In this document: positions 1 to 27,895 of the stretch, piece by piece
Layout: the number at the start of each line of letters is the position of its first letter
How positions within the stretch are numbered: the first letter of the stretch is position 1
NCBI RefSeq assembly: GCF_004121075.1
Contig: NZ_RHLN01000013.1
Coordinates: 1-64,000, forward strand
DNA from: Lutibacter sp. HS1-25
GTDB taxonomy: Bacteria; Bacteroidota; Bacteroidia; Flavobacteriales; Flavobacteriaceae
Direction of reading: 5' to 3'
DNA length: 64,000 bases
Notes under the pieces: model-generated
What the model was told of the DNA's origin: nothing
What the model saw: only the letters and a program-made list of their open reading frames with translations
Database searches by the model: none
Translations under genes and position numbers: made by a program

Positions 1-62
1 TCACCAACACATTTTCCGATTCCTGAAGAACCCCCAGTAATTAATACGACTTTATTATTCAT
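1..62 (-). CDS. Short-chain dehydrogenase/reductase, N-terminal fragment (continues beyond window)
   Basis: The minus strand reads ATG at 62 and then about 20 codons up to the window edge. The peptide starts MNNKVVLITGGSSGIGKC. This is the Rossmann-fold first strand and the TGxxxGxG NAD(P)-binding motif of classical SDRs (TGGSSGIG). The catalytic Tyr-Lys region lies outside the window, so the substrate cannot be inferred. A promoter-like box (TATTTTTG, minus strand, 106-113) lies about 40 nt upstream, within the repeat unit. The upstream region and the first 21 codons are repeated four more times to the right. Confidence 0.8.
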   Translation of the reverse strand, partial: MNNKVVLITGGSSGIGKCVG

Positions 63-174
63 TGAAAATTATAAGATTAAAAATATTGAAATATTAGTTA
101 GAAGTCAAAAATAAGGTATTCTTTAAAAAACAGAAAGATTAAAAGATTTATTTGAAATAAAAACGAAGAGATTT

Positions 175-200
175 AAAAAAGTCCTTTCCTTAGGAAAGGA
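175..200 (-). terminator. Hairpin terminator in the repeat unit (recurs every 217 bp)
   Basis: On the minus strand the 8-bp stem TCCTTTCC/GGAAAGGA with loop TAA is followed by C and six T, the form of an intrinsic terminator. It starts two bases after the TAA stop of the truncated SDR ORF. Equivalent copies occur near 392-417, 609-634, 826-851 and 1051-1076. The rightmost copy lies between the SRP RNA and the repeats. The hairpin is also a near-perfect palindrome, so an operator role is possible. Confidence 0.55.
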
Positions 201-201
201 T

Positions 202-930
202 TTAGGATAGGAAAAATTCACCAACACATTTTCCGATTCCTGAAGAACCCCCAGTAATTAATACGACTTTATTATTCATTGAAAATTATAAGATTAAAAA
301 TATTGAAATATTAGTTAGAAGTCAAAAATAAGGTATTCTTTAAAAAACAGAAAGATTAAAAGATTTATTTGAAATAAAAACGAAGAGATTTAAAAAAGTC
401 CTTTCCTTAGGAAAGGATTTAGGATAGGAAAAATTCACCAACACATTTTCCGATTCCTGAAGAACCCCCAGTAATTAATACGACTTTATTATTCATTGAA
501 AATTATAAGATTAAAAATATTGAAATATTAGTTAGAAGTCAAAAATAAGGTATTCTTTAAAAAACAGAAAGATTAAAAGATTTATTTGAAATAAAAACGA
601 AGAGATTTAAAAAAGTCCTTTCCTTAGGAAAGGATTTAGGATAGGAAAAATTCACCAACACATTTTCCGATTCCTGAAGAACCCCCAGTAATTAATACGA
701 CTTTATTATTCATTGAAAATTATAAGATTAAAAATATTGAAATATTAGTTAGAAGTCAAAAATAAGGTATTCTTTAAAAAACAGAAAGATTAAAAGATTT
801 ATTTGAAATAAAAACGAAGAGATTTAAAAAAGTCCTTTCCTTAGGAAAGGATTTAGGATAGGAAAAATTCACCAACACATTTTCCGATTCCTGAAGAACC
901 CCCAGTAATTAATACGACTTTATTATTCAT
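202..930 (-). pseudogene. Four truncated copies of the SDR start (25-codon ORFs)
   Basis: Each extra repeat unit carries the SDR start codon (279, 496, 713 and 930 on the minus strand). It stays in frame for 21 SDR codons, then crosses the unit junction into four more codons (FFLS) and a TAA stop, at 202-204, 419-421, 636-638 and 853-855. Every copy therefore encodes the same 25-residue peptide containing only the nucleotide-binding loop. These look like by-products of tandem duplication rather than functional genes. Each keeps its own promoter-like box and is followed at once by a hairpin terminator, so short transcripts are possible. Confidence 0.8.
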
Positions 931-1186
931 TGAAAATTATAAGATTAAAAATATTGAAATATTAGTTAGAAGTCAAAAATAAGGTATTCTTTAAAAAACA
1001 GAAAGATTAAAAGATTAAAAGATTTATTTGAAATAAAAAAGAAGAGATTTAAAAAAGTCCTTTCCTTAGGAAAGGATTTAGGATAGGAAAAATAATAAGA
1101 TTATAAAGTTAATGGGAAGTAAAAACTTTTAACAGTAATTTTTATAAATTTAATTTTGAAAAAGACTTAACAAAAGAGCATAAAAA

Positions 1187-1283
1187 AAGGCAAGCTACCT
1201 ACATCACACCGCTACGACCAATTACCTTTGCTGCGTTCCCGCCCTGGAGGATTCAAAGGGAGCTGGTTGTGTAGGACTTGCCC
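1187..1283 (-). ncRNA. ffs: Small bacterial signal recognition particle RNA (4.5S type)
   Basis: The minus strand carries the hallmark SRP domain IV hairpin: the GGGCGGGAACGCAGCAAAGG segment with its GGAA-type tetraloop and the internal loop bound by Ffh. The ends pair as GGCAAG/CTTGCC, closing a single long stem of about 97 nt. That is the short SRP RNA form without an Alu domain. The 3' end runs into seven T (1182-1188, minus strand), which acts as its terminator. A strong promoter sits directly upstream (1288-1317). The RNA works with Ffh and FtsY to target nascent membrane proteins. Confidence 0.95.
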
Positions 1284-1287
1284 GCGG

Positions 1288-1317
1288 CAAATTTACAATC
1301 ATTTTTAGGAAAAACAA
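1288..1317 (-). promoter_or_regulatory. Promoter of the SRP RNA
   Basis: On the minus strand a TTG (1315-1317), 19 bp and TAAATTTG (1288-1295) match the Bacteroidota housekeeping consensus TTG-N19-TAnnTTTG. The predicted start lies at about 1283, exactly at the 5' end of the SRP RNA. Confidence 0.8.
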
Positions 1318-6595: not shown

Positions 6596-6720
6596 TTAAT
6601 TACGAATTATCAATTACAAATTATTAATTACGAATTATTAATTGCGAATTATCAATTACGAATTACGAGTTATCAATTACGAATTATCAATTACGTATTA
6701 CGAGTTATTAATTTTTTATT
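6596..6720. repeat. AT-rich imperfect short repeats
   Basis: The sequence just after the exporter stop codon is built from variants of aattacgaattatcaattac, repeated about seven times with small changes (acgaatta, gcgaatta, acgagtta). No ORF or T-tailed hairpin is evident. The rest of the gap up to 6826 is AT-rich and shows nothing else recognisable. Confidence 0.8.
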
Positions 6721-6826
6721 ACAAATTTCAAATATTCCTTATTAAAAATTCATTTTTAAATATTCATTGTTAAATATTGGCTAATAAAATATCAATTAGT
6801 ATTTTTACCAAAAATATTAGATCAAT

Positions 6827-27784: not shown

Positions 27785-27895
27785 TTGTTTTATATGGGTG
27801 TTCCCTATCGGTCGGGCTATTCGCTATATCTTTTTTACATTTCCACTGCGTTGCAATATAAAAAAGGATGCCGCTGCTATCCCTAACACAATGCA
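27785..27895. other. Candidate dispersed intergenic element
   Basis: Within a 564-bp gene-free stretch, about 110 bp is clearly less AT-rich than its surroundings. It contains the phrases gggtgttccctatcggtcgg, gctattcgctatatc and ccgctgctatcccta. On the minus strand about 35 codons stay open in two frames, but no start signal or known domain is seen. From memory, similar wording recurs between genes in other Flavobacteriaceae, which I cannot check here. The rest of 27600-27986 is AT-rich with no recognisable signal. Confidence 0.4.

Follow-up and report, generated by a model that had tools for sequence, protein, structure and literature searches.

The stretch of DNA analysed here, hereafter the window, comprises bases 1-64000 of contig C13 (81,689 bp) of the Lutibacter sp. 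HS1-25 genome assembly, which consists of 164 contigs; position 1 of the window is a contig end. At this end lies a single tandem array (positions 1-1093; period 217, 5.0 copies, score 2107), far beyond what chance would produce, and behind it lies an SRP RNA gene (Table 1). Read in gene direction, on the minus strand, each unit runs from a terminator-like hairpin through a TATTTTTG box to the ATG and the first 21 codons of a short-chain dehydrogenase (SDR) gene, codon 21 taking its last base from the common AAAAAT of the unit boundaries. The ATG and TATTTTTG stand at identical offsets in 5/5 window units. The original prediction had described near-identical 217-bp tandem units, each with a start region of the same gene; the array is confirmed, units 1-4 being letter-for-letter identical and unit 5 a variant, and the ATG, TATTTTTG and first 21 SDR codons are present in all five. 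Its description of the repeat as a whole promoter-start module is likewise borne out by the sequence, every unit carrying both a TAnnTTTG box and a gene start.

Table 1. Features of the array, its flanks and the SDR gene (coordinates are those of the window unless the C19-end stretch L002 is named).
Feature	Position	Strand	Remarks
Interior units, 4 x 217 bp, identical	1-217, 218-434, 435-651, 652-868	-	Array leaves the contig at position 1
Distal (SRP-side) edge unit	869-1093	-	Carries one C>A change and has 8 bp duplicated after unit position 148
SDR gene-start copy, distal unit	869-930, ATG 930-928	-	
SDR gene-start copies, interior units	652-713, 435-496, 218-279, 1-62	-	
TAnnTTTG-type -7 box TATTTTTG, distal unit, predicted	974-981	-	44-51 nt upstream of ATG
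TATTTTTG boxes, interior units	757-764, 540-547, 323-330, 106-113	-	
Intrinsic-terminator-like hairpin, distal unit	1058-1076	-	8-bp stem, 3-nt loop, CTTTTTT tail
Terminator-like hairpins, interior units	833-851, 616-634, 399-417, 182-200	-	
AAAAAT, right end of array	1088-1093	.	Matches AAAAAT at codon 21 of the SDR gene on contig C19
SRP RNA gene (RF04183)	1184-1290	-	Rfam match 109.8 bits, E 3.2e-22; its position upstream of SDR is conserved
Gene-proximal unit	contig C19, L002:1501-1717		GGA/TCG at codons 10/13
SDR gene, complete	contig C19, L002:756-1562	-	268 aa

The other side of the array closes contig C19 (66,614 bp), where it directly adjoins the SDR gene, here complete. The last 837 bases of C19 are identical to window 1-837, forming an edge-to-edge overlap within the periodic tract. 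One of the five units had been thought to lead into the real gene; none of them does, and the gene-proximal unit sits on C19. A check for the full gene to the left of the window had also been suggested, and the whole SDR was found at the C19 end beside the same array. The window units carry GGG/TCA at codons 10/13, as against GGA/TCG in the gene's own unit, both sites being synonymous. In the added units, the SDR frame goes 4 codons into the next unit and then stops, yielding a 25-aa ORF (listed on contig C19) whose stop codon ends 1 nt ahead of the next hairpin stem.

The SDR product belongs to the short-chain dehydrogenases by its match to PF00106 (E 1e-47). No NCBIfam cut-off was reached among the best 25 of 219 models, the top model in that set being 3-ketodihydrosphingosine reductase, below its cut-off at 265.5 of 400 bits. 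The closest relatives of the protein among the 79 loci returned are mostly from Lutibacter, with others from elsewhere in the Flavobacteriaceae. At Rfam gathering scores, the window yielded the SRP RNA (1184-1290) and Flavo-1 (27806-27891) only, with no RNA family in the unit, and nothing was found in the C19-end stretch. Two further candidate identities of the unit were rejected. A family of short SDR-like peptide genes is not what the 25-aa ORFs represent, as they are plain 5' fragments of the SDR gene that stop at the unit junction; nor does the whole unit behave as a dispersed mobile repeat, given that its long matches in the genome (E <= 0.001) are at C13 and C19 only, the other 6 matches at this threshold being pieces of 35-54 bp with 79-90% identity.

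The surroundings of the gene were compared by script in 116 loci searched for SDR and SRP RNA, 17 of which were left out: 8 from the HS1-25 genome itself and 9 of the 108 others, in which SDR or SRP RNA was not detected or the SDR start was absent, several of them at contig ends. SDR and SRP RNA are neighbours in the remaining 99/108 loci from other records, which include repeated records and amount to 77 distinct sequences; because the two genes adjoin in these loci, we take the C13 start and the C19 end to be chromosomal neighbours. The gap between them across the 99 loci, its SDR end set at the codon that aligns with codon 1, ranges from 6 to 1534 bp (median 116), and in HS1-25 it is 253 bp when one unit is counted. 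A second gene start, sought as the motif ITG(G/A)(S/A)(S/R)GIG, occurs in the gap of 0/99 loci, and the longest exact self-repeat in any of these gaps is 22 bp; in 15/99 loci the motif misses even the true start, and the absence there is the one given by the self-repeat test, applied to the gap and not to gap plus gene. The array thus has the appearance of a local amplification, absent from the 99 related loci examined. At three loci (L110, L111, L112), SRP RNA and the aligned SDR start lie only 6-10 bp apart, and SDR may share the SRP RNA promoter there because so little separates the genes. A Flavo-1 RNA (RF01705) lies in the SRP RNA-SDR gap of 5/14 relatives scanned (L030, L031, L033, L037, L051); Flavo-1 looks like a dispersed element.

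The box in each unit is of the type TAnnTTTG, given as the flavobacterial sigma-A -7 consensus in a portion of PMC9723704. In the 74 distinct related gaps that are at least 40 bp long, the last 150 bp before the gene contain this consensus in 25 cases, against 7.5 expected from mononucleotide shuffles, and lack it in 49. The sigma-70 consensus, by comparison, gave no signal (5 sites vs 6.1 expected). Each unit is accordingly predicted to bear a flavobacterial-type promoter box, and the SDR gene, judged by sequence, retains an intact promoter region within the proximal unit.

Five hairpin sites, all copies of a single one, were counted where shuffled sequence would give 0.6. Their folding (-10 kcal/mol) is modest, with z-scores of -1.4 to -1.9, and termination at the hairpin is uncertain for that reason. 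A 35-bp hairpin pattern (<=3 mismatches) was detected in 8/38 genus genomes, HS1-25 included, and not once with a reversed control; a similar hairpin adjoins the SRP RNA in four other members of the genus (G021, G029, G031, G034). A REP-like hairpin spread over the HS1-25 genome was considered and rejected, all 9 matches of the 35-bp pattern (<=3 mismatches) being within the array. The 19-bp palindrome (<=2 mismatches) occurs at two further places in the genome, on C1 and C2, and a search with the unit returned weak pieces of the hairpin region on C9, C93, C159 and C2; the hairpin may therefore be a weakly dispersed element. Since each added unit closes with a stop codon and a terminator-like hairpin, the added units look like insulated dead ends.

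It is known that recombination between short repeats gives rise to tandem duplications, on which homologous unequal crossing-over can then act. We consider that a real tandem duplication of this sort upstream of SDR, most likely neutral, is the best reading of the locus, at a probability of about 0.6, and the array looks like an ordinary one. A 217-bp stretch reaching from SDR codon 21 to just past the terminator-like hairpin would have been duplicated when two AAAAAT tracts recombined illegitimately or replication slipped from one to the other. As in duplications of the known route, such tracts are found at the unit ends: both unit boundaries have AAAAAT, the one on C19 at SDR codon 21 and the other at 1088-1093 of the window. 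These boundaries fit a duplication at microhomology, a 6-bp A/T tract being weak evidence in an A/T-rich genome. Unequal crossing-over of the two initial copies probably amplified the array later. The interior unit is a hybrid that joins the left part of the distal unit to the right part of the proximal unit, which is the product that such a crossing-over would be expected to leave. Each further unit would constitute a separate module with its own promoter box, ATG, 25-aa ORF and terminator-like hairpin, all visible in the sequence and presumably active as named. Unlike the short-repeat duplications that raise gene dosage, the HS1-25 unit is far smaller than a gene and brings no gain in dosage. 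The effect on SDR expression is expected to be small and the array to be most likely neutral and transient, neutrality being our default assumption.

The direction of change can be judged from the codons that differ between the units. Of 76 distinct related starts, 51 have the ITGGSSGIG motif, and in these codon 10 is GGA in 38, GGC in 7, GGT in 6 and GGG in none; the GGG of the array copies is thus derived. Codon 13 is uninformative in the related starts (TCA 25, TCT 14, TCG 11, TCC 1).

Tandem arrays of this size do not appear exceptional in the genus. Two single-contig genomes of the genus, sampled in 40 stretches of 20 kb (800 kb in all), were scanned with Tandem Repeats Finder and yielded three arrays with a period of at least 80 and a copy number of 1.9 or higher: one of 331 bp x 3.6 (97%), in L234, one of 261 bp x 2.0 (73%), and one of 256 bp x 2.0 (98%), in L260. 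The two arrays of 97-98% sit between ORFs, in 2/40 of the sampled 20-kb stretches; the 331-bp array lies between larger ORFs and itself holds two ORFs of 66-67 aa, and the 256-bp array has no ORF of at least 60 aa around it. A matching scan of the relatives' loci (752 kb) gave three rows (L106, L107), none above 89%. The genome of L. profundi LP1 is described as a PacBio assembly in a part of PMC5219744. The HS1-25 array resembles the two well-matched arrays in having a period of 200-350 bp, their copies being 97-98% matching, and differs from them, as far as ORF lists tell, in that they hold no start of a neighbouring large ORF.

The number of units must be considered separately from the duplication. 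The duplication itself does not appear to be an assembly artefact, because two different edge units are found on two contigs. Only these two units can be regarded as certain, and the copy number beyond them is not fixed by the assembly, since several totals would yield the same 837-bp overlap: six units if that overlap is the true join, more in shorter registers and fewer in the case of a loop. Within a periodic tract, two contig edges are bound to overlap in one register or another. Unmerged overlaps are evidently common in the HS1-25 assembly: ten cases of edges that overlap or nearly do so, over 65-1334 bp, were listed among 82 of its 328 contig ends, the 837-bp case included. For these 82 ends we surveyed the 1.5-kb edges of C1-C40 and C43 (80 ends) together with the C13 start and the C19 end. 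Exactly periodic edges of more than 1 kb were seen in 4/82, namely the C13 start and the C19 end (both of 217-bp period), the C22 start (249-bp period) and the C34 end (240-bp period). Three further ends have exactly periodic edges of 370-444 bp with 1.3-1.6 copies, and in the other 75/82 exact periodicity at the edge does not reach 50 bp of repetition. The end of C160, outside the 82, was found by a search with the C34 array.

These edges bear on an alternative that we regard as possible though unlikely: that the chromosome has two or three units and the assembler over-extended them, the identical interior units coming from repeated walking of a loop from each side. A loop through the right part of the proximal unit and the left part of the distal unit would give exactly the interior genotype, and the two sides of the array end after nearly equal periodic lengths, 1016 bp at the C13 start and 1021 bp at the C19 end. 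The three other ends, picked for long arrays, are periodic over 1053 bp (C22), 1413 bp (C34) and 1606 bp (C160), and 22 of 24 ends that share a non-array repeat have a shorter reach than the array tracts, under 1 kb (395-1267 bp for all 24, median 562.5). Against this, a two-unit array of ~440 bp should have been spanned by the reach of the non-array ends, and edges within one shared repeat are scattered and not placed at one node, a pattern that read-limited extension fits better than a simple graph loop. Over-extension also has to accommodate the array at the C21 end (169 bp x 5.0), with 641/674 positions matching one period on (95%), which is present in the assembly. Because its copies vary and the array stops short of the edge, starting 134 bp inside it, imperfect arrays evidently do get assembled in this genome; smaller imperfect arrays occur at other contig ends. 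Moreover, assembly errors are expected to collapse copies and not to expand them spuriously, according to an excerpt of PMC12817950.

The identity of copies 1-4 had been taken to mean that they expanded recently or are kept uniform by recombination. The second part remains plausible, the interior unit being exactly a hybrid of the two edge units; the inference of recency or homogenisation from identity is not supported, for the exactly periodic tract leaves the contig edge on both sides and both the count and the identity may be products of assembly. Where tandem units lie at a contig edge, how many there are and how alike they are should be taken as biology only once the reads have been consulted.

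Among known kinds of repeat, the promoter tandem repeat (PTR) seems the closest to the array, and the sequence does present tandem copies with a predicted promoter, five units each with TATTTTTG 44-51 nt upstream of an ATG. In M. tuberculosis, PMC12817950 reports PTR units of 57 bp (dop), 58 bp (lpdA) and 54-56 bp (cysG), whose copy numbers differ from isolate to isolate; those of dop and lpdA also vary within a sequenced population. The arrangement of head-to-tail promoter-bearing copies just upstream of one gene is shared with those PTRs, as is an uncertain copy number, there in older assemblies; at 217 bp, in contrast to 54-58 bp, the HS1-25 unit is larger and takes in the ATG and 21 codons as well as a terminator-like hairpin. 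A functional PTR, in which cells differ in copy number and SDR expression is tuned accordingly, by extra promoters reading through the terminators, decoy binding or interference, strikes us as improbable here. It would agree with the TAnnTTTG box in every unit and with the changes in PTR copy number in M. tuberculosis, where expression often rises with copy number (PMC12817950, in part). The stop codon and terminator-like hairpin that end each added unit make the promoters look insulated from the gene and argue against additive promoters, and the tuning of expression by copy number that the original prediction had offered as a possibility finds no support here; the absence of the array from the 99 related loci leaves no long-term selection visible. 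A literature search for repeats of promoter, first codons and terminator returned no description among the matches listed. To our knowledge, promoter-start repeat loci have been little described in flavobacteria, and the HS1-25 array, if its copies are real and variable, would be one.

A ribosome-gated relay, in which a ribosome terminating at the 25-aa fragment would cover the hairpin (the stop codon ending 1 nt before the stem) and let transcription through, so that translation of the fragment sets the number of upstream promoters feeding SDR and the number of units sets the gain, we consider highly improbable.

Several other repeats were noted. The 249-bp array at the C22 start (L149:1-1290) has four identical units, followed by a diverged one and then a more diverged partial one; each unit has a TATCTTTG box, followed after ~70-90 nt by a hairpin whose tail is T-rich, and in the most diverged copy both sides of the stem seem, by eye, to have changed together. 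We regard these units, by their sequence, as candidate tandem small-RNA genes. A match to Flavo-1 is found beside this array as well (L149:1391-1477). The ends of C34 and C160 (L212, L213) carry the same exactly periodic 240-bp array, and at the C34 end one frame is open through all 1500 bases. Finally, an array of 7-bp units of the AATTACG/AATTATC type occupies positions 6598-6731 of the window, and further arrays of 7-bp period were seen at the C13 end, at the C21 end and close to where C35 starts.
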